Shown here: positions 30,236 to 39,696 of the stretch, one piece after another
Layout of the letters: each line of letters opens with the position of its first letter
Position numbering within the stretch: position 1 is the first letter of the stretch
DNA from: Pseudanabaena sp. lw0831
GTDB taxonomy: Bacteria > Cyanobacteriota > Cyanobacteriia > Pseudanabaenales > Pseudanabaenaceae
DNA: 64,000 bases
NCBI RefSeq assembly: GCF_016584665.1
Contig: NZ_BBJB01000057.1
Location: 62,001 to 126,000 of the forward strand
Reading direction: 5' to 3'
Program-made: the position numbers and the translations under genes
Notes under the pieces: model-generated
The model's database searches: none
Seen by the model: only the letters and a program-made list of their open reading frames with translations
Told to the model about the DNA's origin: nothing

Positions 30236-33306
<3,071 letters not shown>

Positions 33307-33576
33307 ATGATGAATACTCCAACCTTACCAAGAGAGCAAGCTGCTACATCAGTAAGTGAAGAAATCGAGAAATCCAGACCACTATCTGAAAATCGGGTCT
33401 TGCTTCATGGGGTGAGTTGGGAAACTTTTGAGCGTTTACTTGCGGATGTTGGCGATCGCCGTAAAACTCTATTCCATTACAACAACGGTACTTTAGAAAT
33501 TATGTCGCCTCTCTCACTCCATGAAGGAAGTGGTCGTTTTTTCGATATAGGAGTTTCGTGGATGAGTGAAGGCTAA
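33307..33576 (+). pseudogene. Truncated Uma2 family gene
   Basis: An 89-residue frame. Residues about 27-73 have the Uma2 N-terminal pattern ENRVLLHGVSWETFERLLAD, then VGDRRKTLFHYNNGTLEIMS. After SPLSLHE the family sequence is lost: the frame continues with GSGRFFDIGVSWMSEG and stops. The catalytic PD-(D/E)XK half found in the complete copy at 15666-16241 is missing. The break marks the left edge of the AT-rich accessory patch. Confidence 0.7.
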
Positions 33577-33714
33577 TTATTCACAGCAAGGGGAAGTTTA
33601 AATTTCTAAATTTGAGTGCGATCGCTATTGCAGAAAAACAAATTTGTAAGTAGTCGTGTTTATAAACTTTATAATGAGATAGTAGATTTTTAGAGTAAGA
33701 GAAAACACCTTTCA

Positions 33715-34398
33715 ATGCCCACCATCAAAACGAAAAAAGCTTTTCAAGAGTTCCTACGTCAAAATATTGACGCTATGCAGTTCGCCGAAAAGGCTAGTGA
33801 TGATTATCTACTTGCTAGATGTGGTCTATTAAACAACTTGTGGTCAAGCTTTGAAATGGCTACTCAATCTGTAGAAAAGCTCTTAAAGTCATACCTACTA
33901 TTTACCGATTCATCACTGCAAGGAAAAGCACATGCAGTTTATCGCGCTGTAGGGAAAGAGTCTAAAGACCTTGGACGCACTACCGAAGCGGGACATAATA
34001 TTGAAGCGTGTTTATCTCTTGCTGAGAAAGCTGGACTTCCTCTTAGCACTGTTCTTGAAAATCAAATTGCTCGAATTAACGCTTATTATAATAATCGCTA
34101 CCCAAACGATGACAGCCCATCATTACTGAGCACTAGTGAATTAGATAGTTTTGACGCAGCAATTTTTGAGATTTGGGATGCCTTTGAATCAATTGATGAA
34201 GATTACTTTTACGTGCATGGAATTATGGCACATGTTTACTCGAAGCTTCTTAGAGATAGACGCAGCAGTAGTTCATTGCTGGAAAATTCGTTTCAAATCA
34301 TGACATCTGGTAATAACTCATACAATGTTCGCAAAGCAAAATTTGAAGAAGGAATTTACCGTAGACTCGAAGAGTGGTATCCAAGAAATTCCGATTAA
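33715..34398 (+). CDS. HEPN-like domain protein
   Basis: A 227-residue, mainly helical protein. Residues 15-105 look HEPN-like: a DDYLLARCGLLNNLWSSFEM helix, an ATQSVEKLLKSYLLF helix and the GRTTEAGHNIEACLSLAEKA segment, which places R88 and H94 in an RX5H spacing. HEPN proteins are RNases or toxins in many defence and toxin-antitoxin loci; that role here is inference. It opens a tight run with the small ORF, the ATPase and the TOPRIM-like gene. The 3' end overlaps the next frame by 74 bp. Confidence 0.55.
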   Translation: MPTIKTKKAFQEFLRQNIDAMQFAEKASDDYLLARCGLLNNLWSSFEMATQSVEKLLKSYLLFTDSSLQGKAHAVYRAVGKESKDLGRTTEAGHNIEACLSLAEKAGLPLSTVLENQIARINAYYNNRYPNDDSPSLLSTSELDSFDAAIFEIWDAFESIDEDYFYVHGIMAHVYSKLLRDRRSSSSLLENSFQIMTSGNNSYNVRKAKFEEGIYRRLEEWYPRNSD

Positions 34399-34549
34399 AA
34401 TTGGCTTTGGAATCTTGAAAAATCCTGATGGAAATACAAAAGTGCAATCGTCAACGACAATTACACTTTCTGGATTCTTTGATAGAAGAGAAAGTGCGAT
34501 AGCTGATCTTGTAAAATACTTTAATACTCATTCAAATTTATTGGAATAG
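34325..34549 (+). CDS. Small protein overlapping the HEPN-like gene (or its frameshifted C-terminus)
   Basis: A 74-residue frame ending 6 bp before the ATPase start. The part beyond the overlap looks like real protein: KIGFGILKNPDGNTKVQSST, then TITLSGFFDRRESAIADLVK. Either it is a separate small gene starting at 34325 inside the HEPN gene, or a -1/+1 shift near 34390 joins it to the HEPN protein. The ribosome site before 34325 is weak. Function unknown. Confidence 0.4.
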   Translation: MFAKQNLKKEFTVDSKSGIQEIPIKIGFGILKNPDGNTKVQSSTTITLSGFFDRRESAIADLVKYFNTHSNLLE

Positions 34550-34555
34550 TTTTTT

Positions 34556-35659
34556 ATGCTTCAAAGACTCTATGTACATAACTTTAGATGCTTGGAGAAT
34601 TTTGAACTAAATCTAAAAGATTTGCCCTCTTCACTTTTAATTGGCAAAAATGGCACAGGTAAATCAACGATCGCTTCTGCGTTAGAAGTATTACAAAGCA
34701 TAGGTCGAGGCATTAATAGAGTTAGTCAGCTTATACAGAATAAGGACTTTAATAATGGTAGGTTTGGCGTTCCAATTCGTTTTGAGATAGAAGTATTACT
34801 TAAAGAGCAATTATATAAGTATGTCCTTGCGTTAGAATTGTCATCAGAAAATTCCAAGGAAATCCGCGTATTTGAAGAACAATTGTTAGTTGCAGGGAAT
34901 CCAATTTATTCGCGTGAAGTTTCACAGGTCAACTTTTACTCCAGCCCACAAGAAGCTCAGTTTCAATTACTGTGGCATCTTGTCGCTCTTCCATTAATTC
35001 AGGTGAAATCTGAGACTGATCCTCTTTATATTTTCAAGAATTGGCTGTCGCGCATGATCATTTTAGCTCCGATCCCAAGCTTGATGACAGGGGAATCTAG
35101 TGGTGAGACTCTGGAACCAGAACGGAATGGATCAAATTTTGGCGAATGGTTCTCTGGCTTACTTAGGCGCTACCCCGCCGCTTATACGCAGGTTGACAGA
35201 TATCTTCGTGAAGTCATGCCCGATATTCAGGATATCCAGAATGAACCGATTGGCAAAGATGCTAAAAGCATGATTGTTCAGTTTGAAGCAAATAATCAAA
35301 CATTGAGTCTTGATTTTAAAGACTTATCTGATGGAGAAAAATGCTTTTTCCTCTGTGCTGTCGTCCTAGCGGCAAACAAGTACTATAGTCCTTTTTGCTT
35401 CTGGGATGAGCCTGACAACTATCTTTCTCTATCAGAGGTAGGACATTTTATTACAACCCTAAGGCGCTCATTTAAGAATAGTGGACAAATTTTAGTAACG
35501 TCGCATAACGAAGAAGCAATCCGCAAGTTTTCTAACGAAAATACTTTTATACTCGATCGCAAAAGTCACTTAGAGCCAACTTTGATTAGGATGCTTAGTG
35601 AGATACCTATAAATGGCGATCTTGTGAATAGCTTGATTCTTGGCGACATAGAATTATGA
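34556..35659 (+). CDS. AAA family (AAA_21 / ABC-type, OLD-like) ATPase
   Basis: A 367-residue ATPase. It has RecF/SMC-like strand order: YVHNFRCLENFELNL, Walker A IGKNGTGKST (residues 30-38), signature LSDGEK (257-262), Walker B CFWDEPDNYLS (D284, E285) and H-loop VTSHNEEAIRKF (H317). There is a large insert between Walker A and the signature, as in the ATPase half of OLD/GajA/AriA-type defence proteins. The ATG at 34556 follows the small ORF by 6 bp, and its stop overlaps the next start by 4 bp (ATGA). Confidence 0.75.
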   Translation: MLQRLYVHNFRCLENFELNLKDLPSSLLIGKNGTGKSTIASALEVLQSIGRGINRVSQLIQNKDFNNGRFGVPIRFEIEVLLKEQLYKYVLALELSSENSKEIRVFEEQLLVAGNPIYSREVSQVNFYSSPQEAQFQLLWHLVALPLIQVKSETDPLYIFKNWLSRMIILAPIPSLMTGESSGETLEPERNGSNFGEWFSGLLRRYPAAYTQVDRYLREVMPDIQDIQNEPIGKDAKSMIVQFEANNQTLSLDFKDLSDGEKCFFLCAVVLAANKYYSPFCFWDEPDNYLSLSEVGHFITTLRRSFKNSGQILVTSHNEEAIRKFSNENTFILDRKSHLEPTLIRMLSEIPINGDLVNSLILGDIEL

Positions 35660-36165
35660 GAGTGAATAAGTTTGTTGAGCATATTCTTGTGCTACCTGAA
35701 GATGATGCTAATCGCCAAATTATCAATGGATTTATTCTTAACTTAAGCGTTAATAAAACTGCTATTCAGGTTTTACCGATCGCTAATGGTTGGAAAAAAG
35801 TGGTAGATAAATTCAAGAACGATCATGTTTCTGAGATGGGAAAATTCCCAAAGAGAATGATTGTCTTGGTTATCGATTTTGATGATTATAAGGAACCAGA
35901 TGGATTGAGTTATGAAAATCGACTAATTTATATCAAGAGTCAAGTTCCAGAGGAGCTACAAGAACGGGTATTTATTCTTGGATCTCGGACTGCACCTGAG
36001 AAACTCAAGAATGATATGAAAAAGAGCTTTGAAGACATTGGCGAAGCTCTTGCTAAAGATTGTGTTGAAAATACGAATGAAACATGGGAGCATCACCTTC
36101 TTAGACATAACGAAAATGAGCTAAAGCGTGTACGTCTGGCTGTCAAACCATTTCTTTTTAATTAA
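35656..36165 (+). CDS. TOPRIM-like protein partnered with the ATPase
   Basis: A 169-residue protein. HILVLPEDDANRQIINGFIL (E15, D16, D17) and RMIVLVIDFDDYKEPDG (D74, D76, D77) resemble the glutamate and DxD motifs of a TOPRIM domain, separated by a basic helix (GWKKVVDKFKN). TOPRIM domains supply nuclease activity in OLD, Gabija and PARIS-type systems. Its ATGA overlap with the ATPase gene argues for a two-protein complex. The domain call rests on motif spacing alone and needs structural confirmation. Confidence 0.5.
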   Translation: MRVNKFVEHILVLPEDDANRQIINGFILNLSVNKTAIQVLPIANGWKKVVDKFKNDHVSEMGKFPKRMIVLVIDFDDYKEPDGLSYENRLIYIKSQVPEELQERVFILGSRTAPEKLKNDMKKSFEDIGEALAKDCVENTNETWEHHLLRHNENELKRVRLAVKPFLFN

Positions 36166-36640
36166 CGTCAGATTCTTAAAAATTGTTGGTAATGATGCTA
36201 GTCATTTTTGAGTATGAATCTAGAGTCAATAAGCAAGATTGTGTATTGTCGCACCCCAAAAGATATAATCGCTTAAGACTTGTTTACATAATCATAGATA
36301 CAATCACAGATTTATATGGCAGAGGTTACTTTTTTTAACGCCCTCAGAGAAGCGATCTCTGACCAAATGATTTAAGCGATTCTAGGAATATGTTAATGCC
36401 TAGATCCCCGACTTTTTCTGTAAACTTGTAAATCCCCTTTGATTGAGTAGAAAAAGTCGGGGATCTCAACCTCGATGTTGAGCGATGACTATGCGTTTGA
36501 GTGCGATGATTTAGAGAATCTTTAACCCAATGAAACAAGTGATGAGCTGCTAAATTATTTATATCAGTTTAGGCGATCGCATCATCCTTTAATATGTCTA
36601 GCCCTAAAAATTCCAGCAAAATCTCAATAAGTTACTTACT
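36166..36640. other. 475-bp gene-free stretch with an inverted repeat
   Basis: No convincing frame. It holds the 18-bp inverted repeat at 36402-36466 and lies at the right edge of the AT-rich accessory patch. A GCGATCGC-bearing stretch resumes near 36580. Confidence 0.5.
36402..36466. repeat. 18-bp inverted repeat, MITE-like
   Basis: AGATCCCCGACTTTTTCT (36402-36419) and its exact complement at 36449-36466, separated by 29 nt. Sequences of this kind (ATCCCCGACTTTTTC) recur in cyanobacterial intergenic DNA and probably represent a small dispersed repeat. No target-site duplication is evident. Confidence 0.65.
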
Positions 36641-37858
36641 ATGACAACCGATCCTATTGAGCAATCTGAACCTAGTGATGAAGTCTCAAAAATTAATTCT
36701 GCAATTATTCCATCTGAAGTAGCTCAGAAAAGAGGAAAATGGGGCAAAGCGCTTAGTGCGGTTTCTGGCGCAGCAGGAGCAGTTGGTAACGCAGTCGGTG
36801 GCGCAGCAGGAGCAGTTAGTGGTTCCATTGTTGTCGCAGGAGGTTCCATCGGTAGTGCCGCAGGAGCAGTTGGCGGCGCAGTTGGCGCATTGACTAAAAC
36901 AGTCGGCGGTGCGGTAGTTGGTGGCATCTCAACGGCAACCAGTGGCACAGGATATGCGATCGATGCGATCGGCAACAGTCTTTTGATGAAGAAAGTTGCT
37001 CAAACCTTCAAGGCTGATTGGCTGCTTCAAATACTAGATCAAGTTGATGTTAGCAAGGCAGAAGCTGAAGTGAAGCGCCTCAAGCAAAAATATCCTAACG
37101 AGTCCGTAAACCAAATAGCTCAAAGGATCATCAGACAAAAAGCAGTATTTGCTGGTGCAACTGGATTTGCTACTTCCATTGTCCCTGTTGCGGCGGCAGT
37201 ATTTTTCGCTGGGGATCTGATTGCCACAACTTCACTTCAAGCCGAGATGGTTTATCAAATTGCCAGTGCCTATGGAATGGATCTTAAAGATCCGACTAGA
37301 AAAGGTGAGATTGTCGCAGTATTTGGATTAGCTTTTGGCGGCAAAATGGCGATCAAAGCTGGATTAGGAATGCTCAGGAATATTCCCATTGCTGGCTCAG
37401 TGATTGCCGTAAGTTCCAATGCAGTTATGCTTTATACCTTGGGGCAAGCTAGTTGCGCGTTTTATGAAGCAAAGCTCAACCCAGTCAACTTTGAGGAGAA
37501 ACTAGAAGCAATTCAAAAAGATAGCGAGGAAATCTTAAAAAGTGCAATTCCACAGGAAGAAATCATCGATCAAATTCTCGTCCATGTGATCTTGGCGGGA
37601 AATCAGGGCAGAAGTAAGGGCAGAAGTAAGGAGGATATTTTAACTGATTTGAGATTAGCCAATCTCAAATCAGAATCGATCAATGCGATCGCAAACCACA
37701 TGGATTCACCGATCCCTCTTGAGATTTTACTAAAAGATATCAAACCAGAGTTTGCTTTATCTTTATTTGTCCAATGTCAGAAATTCGCCATGCTAGACGG
37801 TATCGTAACGCCTGAGGAGGCAGAATTACTCAGGATGATTGAGAAGAAATTAGGTTGA
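36641..37858 (+). CDS. EcsC-like protein with Ala/Gly-rich N-terminus
   Basis: A 405-residue protein. Residues 35-110 are Ala/Gly/Val repeats (GAAGAVGNAVGGAAGAVSGS), likely membrane-associating. The middle (about 165-285) resembles the EcsC family: FATSIVPVAAAVFFAGDLIA, LQAEMVYQIASAYGMDLKDP and GEIVAVFGLAFGGKMAIKAG. The C-terminal 35 residues (LFVQCQKFAMLDGIVTPEEA) look like the end of a TerB-like domain. Function unknown. The start at ATG 36641 is the only reasonable one. Confidence 0.55.
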   Translation: MTTDPIEQSEPSDEVSKINSAIIPSEVAQKRGKWGKALSAVSGAAGAVGNAVGGAAGAVSGSIVVAGGSIGSAAGAVGGAVGALTKTVGGAVVGGISTATSGTGYAIDAIGNSLLMKKVAQTFKADWLLQILDQVDVSKAEAEVKRLKQKYPNESVNQIAQRIIRQKAVFAGATGFATSIVPVAAAVFFAGDLIATTSLQAEMVYQIASAYGMDLKDPTRKGEIVAVFGLAFGGKMAIKAGLGMLRNIPIAGSVIAVSSNAVMLYTLGQASCAFYEAKLNPVNFEEKLEAIQKDSEEILKSAIPQEEIIDQILVHVILAGNQGRSKGRSKEDILTDLRLANLKSESINAIANHMDSPIPLEILLKDIKPEFALSLFVQCQKFAMLDGIVTPEEAELLRMIEKKLG

Positions 37859-37938
37859 AATCTGTCAGAATCAAAAAGATGATAGGCGGCAAAAGTATAT
37901 CCTACAATCTTTTTGATTTTCAGTTATCCATAGCTAAT

Positions 37939-37989
37939 AAAAACAAAAGCTAGTTGCGGCGCGAAGCGCTGCAACTAGCTTTTGTTTTT
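37939..37989. terminator. Hairpin between convergent EcsC-like and Get3-like genes
   Basis: AAAAACAAAAGCTAGTTGCG.. (37939-37962), GAA loop, complement 37966-37989 with one G-T mismatch. Tip GGCGC-gaa-GCGCT. It is a member of the palindrome family and probably ends the plus-strand gene. Confidence 0.75.
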
Positions 37990-38110
37990 TGGCTTTGTCC
38001 AAAATACAACATCTTCATATGGCAACGCCATTTGAAGATATTAAAACTCTTACTGGGTTTGGTTGTTAATCCCCGAAATTGTAGTCACACTTTCAGGGAC
38101 TGGTATAACA

Positions 38111-39292
38111 TTAAACAGGAGTCGAAAAGCGAATTTTCAGATAGTCACCTTCCATCTTTGCACCAGCAGTTTGAAGAACCGATAGAGCCTGAGGTAACAC
38201 CAAATTGCGGCGATGATTACCGATACGGATATTCAGCTCATCACCAGTCTTGGTTAGCTCAATCTTCTCTTTCGGCACACCTGGTAAATACAATTCCAAA
38301 CGATACTGCTTGTTCTCTTCAACTACACGCATCGTATTTTCTTTGTAATAGACCTGAGATGGATCTTCATTACCGTATAGAGTCTCTTTTAGCCTTTCTA
38401 GGGCAGCAATTCCACACATTTCCTCAGCATAGAGGGGAATCTCCTTGATTGGCAAAGGGTGAAAATCACGGTGAATTTGTTCACAATACTGCTTCTGATT
38501 GTCCTTCCAAACTTTAAAGAACGGATCTTGGACTTCCTCAGGAATGATGCGATTGGCGATCACCATGTCAGTAGCTACATTATAGAGACTGAGATAGGAA
38601 TGCGCTCTCAAAGACTCATTGATCACCATCTTCTCTGGATTAGTCACCAGCCTGACCGTTGTGGTCGTATTGTCCGTGAGGATTTTCTCTAAAGCTTCCA
38701 GTTCTTCATAAAACTCATAGGGTGCGTCCATTACCTCTTTATTCGGCAAAGAGAACCCAGTCACCCGCTTAAAAATTGGCTGAAATACAGGACTGAGAAC
38801 TTGGGCAATCCCCTGTAAAGGTTTATAAAACTTCCGCATATACCAACCTGCCACCTCAGGTAGCGAAAGTAGTCGAAGCGCTGTCCCCGTAGGTGCAGAG
38901 TCAATTACTAATACGTCGTATTCCTTTTCGTCATAGTGACGCTTGACACGCACTAAACCAAAAATCTCATCCATCCCTGGCAAGATGGCAAGCTCTTCTG
39001 CCTGAACTCCTTCCAACCCTCTTGCTTGGAGAACTTCACTAATATAACGCTTGACCGCACCCCAGTTGCCTTCGAGTTCACGTAATGCGTCTAGCTCTGC
39101 TCCCCAAAGATTTGGGCGAATTTCTTTAGGGTCATGGCCTAATTCGACCATAAAGCTATCGGCGAGGGAGTGAGCAGGATCGGTACTCAAAACTAGAGTT
39201 CTATAACCCAATTCAGCACAGCGCAAACCTGTGGCTGCGGCGACAGAAGTTTTGCCAACCCCGCCTTTTCCTGTCATTAAAATGATACGCAT
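38111..39292 (-). CDS. Get3/ArsA family ATPase with C-terminal HSP20-like domain
   Basis: A 393-residue protein. Deviant P-loop [20 protein letters not shown] (residues 6-25), switch region [29 protein letters not shown], and a helical subdomain. The C-terminal 80 residues ([31 protein letters not shown]) form the small heat-shock-like fold typical of the cyanobacterial ArsA/Get3 type. Family members sort tail-anchored proteins or energise arsenite pumps; no arsB is nearby, so a targeting/chaperone role is more likely (inference). Confidence 0.85.
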
Positions 39293-39696
39293 GGTCGATA
39301 TGACTCGTCTTGTTTAAATTTTGATGAGGCTAGGCTGAACATCGCTTTGCTCTATGCAGCCTAATAAATTTTGAATAAATAGATTGCTTTGCAAATCTTT
39401 ACAATTTCCTCTAATTCTAACATTGATATCGCGATCGCCTAAAGCGCTTTTGAAATGCTTCAGCACTTCTCATTATAAAAATCAGTTTTGATGTAAGTCC
39501 GCAGTCGGCGGACTTGCATCAAAACTGATTTTTGGGGTTTCAGAGCATGCAGAGATGAAACCCCAAAAATCAGTTTCATAATTAGAACTACTGGAATGCT
39601 TTTCCTACTTACTGGTTTTTTGGATTGTATACATGGTAGTTTAGCCTGAGGCAAACTTAAACTAGCTTAGTTAACTGCTGTAAGGCTTTTACCTAT
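39293..39696. other. 404-bp divergent intergenic region with mutually exclusive hairpins
   Basis: It lies between the divergent Get3-like and Hpt genes. The only structured part is 39477-39576 (listed separately). No coding frame or RNA gene is convincing. Confidence 0.5.
39477..39576 (+). promoter_or_regulatory. Three-arm palindrome with alternative pairings upstream of the Hpt gene
   Basis: Arm A AAAAATCAGTTTTGATG (39477-39493) pairs perfectly with arm B at 39517-39533. Arm B's right part, extended to 39522-39542, pairs equally well with arm C at 39556-39576 (TGAAACCCCAAAAATCAGTT). A-B and B-C cannot form together. The layout is attenuator-like, 120 bp before the Hpt start, although it could simply be nested copies of the palindrome family. 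Confidence 0.45.

Follow-up and report, generated by a model that had tools for sequence, protein, structure and literature searches.

The DNA analysed here, 64,000 nucleotides of Pseudanabaena sp. lw0831 (contig NZ_BBJB01000057.1, positions 62,001 to 126,000; hereafter the window), raises the question of whether four tightly packed open reading frames (ORFs), encoding a HEPN-like protein (P0001), a product of 74 amino acids (aa; P0002), an OLD/RecF-like ATPase (P0003) and a small protein directly behind it (P0004, hereafter the partner), make up a single defence system, as a first-pass annotation had proposed. They are neighbours and not one system: homologues of the ATPase-partner pair were found without the upstream genes in every locus examined, and P0001 was absent from 34/34 pair loci tested with tblastn, a set that includes one repeat (L051 is L005; L, G and C numbers denote our loci, genomes and contigs). 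On balance, we favour the reading that the functional unit is the pair, which would defend through trigger sensing and a nuclease, with the HEPN gene as separate, exchangeable cargo that works independently if it works at all.

The ATPase and its partner are a conserved two-gene cassette. In a phylum sample of 386 cyanobacterial genomes, counting matches at 1e-20 or better, the ATPase was matched in 31, comprising 25 with close orthologues (61% identity or more, the source genome included) and six with a distant paralogue only (23-28%). Full-length orthologues were present in 20 other genomes of this sample (L009-L028), with an intact partner directly downstream in 16 of them; in the remaining four, the partner is broken or lost (L014, L016 and L017) or cut by a contig end (L022). 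Both genes are under purifying selection, as the ratios of non-synonymous to synonymous substitution (dN/dS) against L049 (the nearest orthologue), L053 and L005 were 0.10, 0.145 and 0.088 for the ATPase, and 0.12, 0.286 and 0.259 for the partner. Within the genus sample, the partner was matched in 10 of 26 genomes (own included, one match being a fragment only), and its two closest named matches are metagenome-assembled genomes named Pseudanabaena. The ATPase also occurs on two plasmids at 74-76% identity, one of which carries the partner as well, and four further loci beyond the 20 (L029-L032) hold truncated ATPases. This patchy spread, together with the plasmid copies and the four truncated loci, fits a mobile, often lost gene set. 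Decay of the pair by frameshift or loss of the partner was frequent (L014, L016, L017, L029-L032 and L052), and transposase-like ORFs lie inside the pair in L032. A search of viral contigs with the partner alignment A1 returned no relative.

Physically, the locus is as first described. All four ORFs occupy the predicted positions in the ORF list of the window and are packed on the same strand, with a 74-bp overlap, a 6-bp gap and a 4-bp ATGA overlap. The surrounding DNA is rich in A and T: the three 1-kb bins spanning 33001 to 36000 have a G+C of 0.36-0.39, against 0.40-0.47 in most window bins. The truncated neighbouring gene belongs to the Uma2 family, with 89 aa against 234 aa at the orthologous locus L049. 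The features of the region are:

33715-34398, plus strand: HEPN-like protein P0001, 227 aa; slot cargo, not a subunit (Pfam, profile of relatives)
34325-34549, plus strand: 74-aa ORF P0002 (codon bias shift; leader DNA shared with relatives at its 3' end)
34556-35659, plus strand: OLD/RecF-like ABC-type ATPase P0003, 367 aa; putative sensor/motor subunit of the pair (Pfam, PADLOC, orthologue alignment)
35656-36165, plus strand: probable TOPRIM-like nuclease partner P0004, 169 aa (start overlaps the ATPase stop by 4 bp)
34496-34555, plus strand: leader DNA of the ATPase gene, also present in relatives; bounds the variable slot on the right (blastn against L049 and L053)
33639-34495, no strand: variable slot holding the HEPN-like gene (no blastn match in L049, L053 or L054)
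33307-33576, plus strand: Uma2-family gene, truncated, to the left of the slot (PADLOC PDC-S17, 2e-11; full-length 234-aa Uma2 in L049)
30236-32986, minus strand: apcE-like gene, anchor of the variable site (700 bases matched in 26/26 genus genomes)
36317-36358, plus strand: remnant of a pyruvate dehydrogenase E1-beta-like gene, its first 14 codons (nucleotide match to locus L056 of G407)

We take the ORF at 30236-32986 to be the phycobilisome linker gene apcE, and the gene behind the pair is presumably of pyruvate dehydrogenase E1-beta type. No transfer RNA (tRNA) genes were found in the window, and promoters and terminators were predicted no more frequently than in shuffled sequence. A perfect inverted repeat with 18-nt arms and a 29-nt spacer lies at 36402-36466.

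Comparison with orthologous loci separated the pair from its upstream neighbours. When aligned to L049 by blastn, the window matched between apcE and 33547, over a short stretch at 33551-33638, and then again from 34496; against L053 the alignment resumed at 34488, eight bases earlier. The block between, 33639-34495, was unmatched in L049, L053 and L054 and is private to the window. At the same position, L049 carries a PIN_8 gene (3.6e-57) and a Phd/YefM-like ORF, L053 the Septu genes PtuA/PtuB (9.7e-148 and 9.8e-80), L166 a 108-aa ORF of no family, and L054 nothing. A packed four-gene layout can thus mislead, and an orthologous locus with different cargo tells unit from neighbour.

The description of the first protein as HEPN-like held up: P0001 matched PF05168 at 9e-4, under the gathering score, and a profile of six other family proteins matched P0001 alone among the 239 frames of the window (E 1.8e-11). 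Because the seed of that profile was found via P0001 itself, the match confirms similarity and is no independent test. Outside, the databases gave one relative, a protein from a Rahnella plasmid that carries a HEPN annotation (E 0.2; pairwise 1e-8) and whose gene lies on the opposite strand from satellite- or prophage-like neighbours. Similar proteins are encoded on four viral contigs, and on one of these the gene, by eye, once more stands by itself. The HEPN RNase motif is Rx4-6H; by eye, P0001 has only R88-x5-H94, which is not at a conserved aligned position. A single-sequence structure model was all helical and weak, with a predicted local distance difference test score (pLDDT) of 37.5. No other copy of P0001 was found in the 386 phylum genomes or in 38 genomes of the order (26 of which are the genus genomes again), and the genus sample gave a single weak, stop-riddled fragment in G408 (E 0.064). 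Searches with P0001 yielded no match in phages and no relative among viral contigs. HEPN proteins of 230-240 aa were also seen alone in prophage- or satellite-like surroundings (L184 5001-5714 and L183 3983-4696), and some of these relatives have an R-x4-H near the C-terminus.

The 74-aa ORF is unlikely to be a gene in its own right. The final 18 codons lie in leader DNA common to relatives, in which this frame has a stop, and the ORF had no match in Pfam, PADLOC or PHROGs and noise only in NCBIfam. Matches in relatives were either to the common leader (G398, G396 and, partly, G407) or weak (E 0.1-0.8), several of the latter containing stops or lying in phycobiliprotein-like frames. On these library nulls and leader-only or weak matches, we rejected it as a conserved gene. 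In codon bias it resembles a gene, scoring 0.182 where 140 gene segments give a 5% limit of 0.127; the highest of 21 spurious short ORFs reached 0.283. Near 34300-34345 the codon bias shifts out of the P0001 frame and into the 74-aa frame, so the ORF may represent the HEPN gene's 3' end after a frameshift; it is probably either this frameshifted 3' part or a spurious ORF.

As first noted, the third gene encodes an OLD/AriA-type ATPase: the motifs GKNGTGKST (Walker A), LSDGEK, FWDEPDN and TSHN are present and largely conserved over 21 sequences. Pfam returned AAA_21 (1.7e-16), AAA_15 (7.6e-16) and also SMC_N, and PADLOC returned AbiLi (1.8e-23), HEC-01A (1.4e-22), mad3 (7.9e-20) and AriA (1.5e-17 and 2.4e-16). 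Orthologues in alignment A2 are 69-90% identical, with a mean column identity of 77%. Sequence searches of the PDB with the ATPase and A2 retrieved generic Rad50/SMC/ABC-F, PtuA, retron and OLD entries, and a phage search gave one match at 22.8% identity.

The acidic residues pointed out in the partner are indeed conserved, E15 and D74 being invariant and D76 present in at least 90% of 21 sequences. No library (Pfam, PADLOC, NCBIfam or PHROGs) names the protein, and we dismissed a weak Pfam match to T4_Rnl2_C (0.1) as noise. We compared alignments of the partner family (A1), a sister partner family (A5) and HEC-01B-type proteins (A6) by hhalign against 60 column shuffles each; the HEC-01B set used 13 of 30 loci, with L064-L067 left out as a separate subgroup, and a DUF4435 set used 15 of 20 (L125 and L128-L131 left out). 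A1 matched A5 at E 8.7e-6, and A5 matched the OLD TOPRIM at E 2.5e-4, with 0/60 shuffles as high in either case. A5 likewise exceeded all 60 shuffles against HEC-01B-type proteins, and its member L037 matches HEC-01B at 5.5e-6. This two-step argument through an intermediate family makes a TOPRIM-like partner probable. The weak AlphaFold2 (AF2) model of the partner shows an alternating order of strands and helices, and PDB searches by sequence with A1, A5 and A6 gave nothing meaningful.

The sister family A5 goes with a distant ATPase family, A3, which has one copy in the source genome (contig C53, 26014-27078; L002). This second ATPase is 27% identical to P0003 and closest to PADLOC PDC-M25A (7.4e-25). 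Its small downstream partner, of family A5, is weakly HEC-01B-like, and A5 partners carry CED, DAD and RNIETW motifs; these genes are probably another ATPase-TOPRIM pair. Elsewhere in the source genome, contigs C84 and C85 contain matches to the OLD-like TOPRIM (PF20469), and C51 a match to DUF4435.

How might such a pair work? The ATPase would form a complex of the OLD/AriA kind, which detects a trigger related to infection and either retains the small partner or switches it on. The partner would be a two-metal TOPRIM nuclease (E15, D74 and D76) that cuts nucleic acid and so stops the infection. That the ATPase senses and the partner cuts is proposed by analogy with AriA and AriB of PARIS, and nuclease activity, trigger sensing and defence are accordingly predicted roles of the pair. 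The cassette would move between cyanobacteria and often be lost; in this lineage it lies beside apcE, next to a site at which other defence or toxin genes are exchanged. We infer that the pair is likely an anti-phage defence cassette common to many cyanobacteria.

Several observations weigh against this reading. No PADLOC model matches the window partner at E up to 1, and A1 compares poorly with established families directly: E 0.021 against the OLD TOPRIM (2/60 shuffles as high), E 0.04 against DUF4435 (1/60), and no better than shuffles against A6, the HEC-01B/DUF4276 alignment (35/60). The AF2 model, built from the window sequence and one related locus, has a mean pLDDT of 50.5, and fold searches with it gave generic alpha/beta matches, with no TOPRIM among the matches listed by Foldseek (best E 5.3e-3, unrelated folds) or VIA (best Z 7.4 among 50 matches listed). 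The model is too weak for a judgement on the fold, and the fold search says nothing against TOPRIM. Outside Pseudanabaena, moreover, the pair stands by eye mostly among housekeeping-looking genes and not in defence islands. The first-pass proposal of a split ATPase/TOPRIM pair thus survives as a probable assignment reached via A5, whilst the direct link to OLD is weak and the model too poor to add to it.

These points bear on what else the locus could be. A true four-gene system (or one of HEPN, ATPase and TOPRIM), in which the ATPase pair would unleash a HEPN toxin, draws on the tight packing on one strand and on both parts being of defence type in Pfam and PADLOC. However, the HEPN gene occurs in no other of the 386, 26 and 38 genomes bar the one weak fragment, close relatives have other cargo or none at the same position, and the HEPN relatives examined occur without the pair. 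With HEPN missing from the other pair loci and the slot exchanged in relatives, we rejected such a system as extremely unlikely. It also appears very improbable that the pair is a common sensing module in Pseudanabaena, working with whichever nuclease fills the slot (HEPN, PIN or Septu) whilst effectors are swapped by cassette exchange.

The pair could instead have no part in defence. A genome-maintenance or regulatory unit of RecF/OLD-like kind would suit the high conservation of the ATPase and the housekeeping-looking neighbours outside the genus, and the available part of PMC12796447 describes an archaeal OLD-family ATPase with a cell-cycle role; patchy distribution, plasmid copies and frequent decay are nevertheless unlike a core function, and we regard this explanation as unlikely. 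Distinctly unlikely, in our view, is a two-gene toxin-antitoxin-like or plasmid-stability unit in which the ATPase restrains a nuclease. Here the overlap of the small partner with the ATPase gene, the two plasmid copies of the ATPase and the Phd/YefM-type genes beside some copies are in keeping with the idea, but no stability phenotype is known, and an ATPase-TOPRIM architecture is known from defence systems according to the portion of PMC12409363 at hand.

We described the apcE site from the 26 genus genomes, with L166, L173 and L177 short where the contig ends. The pair is beside apcE in five: G000 (the source genome), G396, G398, G406 and G407, a contig end cutting the partner in G406 and the ATPase in G407 (the rest is taken to be on another contig). 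A Uma2 gene of the L049 type stands beside apcE in nine genomes. Where the pair is missing, the ORFs after Uma2 are a PtuA fragment with a type I restriction-like ORF (G404; L160 1180-4287), a second Septu pair with ParE/RHH genes (G400; L161 4793-7438), or a 108-aa ORF and a Phd/YefM gene (G394). G389 has a 208-aa ORF without known family. In G344 an Mrr type IV gene adjoins apcE and Uma2 is lacking, and by eye the remaining genus genomes showed no recognised defence gene at this site. With Septu, PIN_8, type I restriction-like and Mrr genes at one site in relatives, the defence-type neighbourhood first proposed is borne out, and the apcE flank looks like a defence-gene hotspot with cargo exchange, making it a place to look for further Pseudanabaena defence genes. 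On the far side of the pair, window positions 36244-36369 match L056 at 93.7% and 36088-36369 match L006/L057 at 96%; the full pyruvate dehydrogenase-like gene follows the partner in L056 (G407) and a remnant of the pair in G404.

Finally, we set the pair against known systems. To our knowledge, immunity is thinly studied in these cyanobacterial lineages. We found no description of the pair or of the apcE site in the literature searched, including the parts available of PMC10568477, PMC3710099, PMC8565338 and PMC12409363, and the term HEC does not appear in the available text of PMC8565338. Septu, PIN_8, Uma2 and Phd/YefM genes occupy the same apcE-side site in related genomes, but they are of different families, neighbours and not relatives of the pair. 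The single-chain OLD classes 1-3 (P2 Old, Gabija GajA and retron OLD) share the ATPase superfamily and, through A5, the TOPRIM link, whereas here the ATPase and the partner are encoded separately, their ORFs overlapping by 4 bp; by eye, the ORF list from 31000 to 39500 shows no gene recognisable as a helicase or reverse transcriptase. MADS is a multi-gene mad cluster with a methyltransferase; its mad3 profile matches the ATPase, but the neighbours scanned resemble Uma2, HEPN and EcsC genes, not a mad cluster. In HEC-01, a candidate system of PADLOC, the partner is, we presume, of DUF4276 type. HEC-01A ranks second for the ATPase, and 2 of 21 partner homologues match HEC-01B weakly (best 0.0039), yet an ATPase next to a HEC-01B-type gene (L074) scores far higher on HEC-01A (up to 3.4e-203), and the window partner itself has no HEC-01B match.

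AbiL and PARIS, together with MADS, are named as ATPase-Toprim associations in the consulted part of PMC12409363. AbiLi is the best PADLOC match of the ATPase, but the match is loose and gapped, spreading profile positions 49-265 over protein positions 1-350, and the partner has no PADLOC match (whether the library includes an AbiLii model was not checked). PARIS likewise encodes its OLD-like ABC ATPase and its TOPRIM-type effector in two genes; as the same part of PMC12409363 describes, AriA retains AriB until it is set free by a phage trigger, whereupon AriB cuts tRNA. The likeness to PARIS first suggested holds for the split arrangement with a probable TOPRIM. The AriA profile matches the ATPase but ranks below AbiLi, HEC-01A and mad3, and the partner has no DUF4435/AriB match in Pfam, PADLOC or NCBIfam. 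The pair is thus not a member of PARIS, HEC-01, MADS or the single-chain OLD systems, and it may or may not belong to AbiL. If it defends, it would add to split ATPase-TOPRIM immunity a cyanobacterial branch in which PADLOC models miss the partner gene. The pair is best read as a split OLD-like ATPase-TOPRIM pair that would work like PARIS or AbiL.

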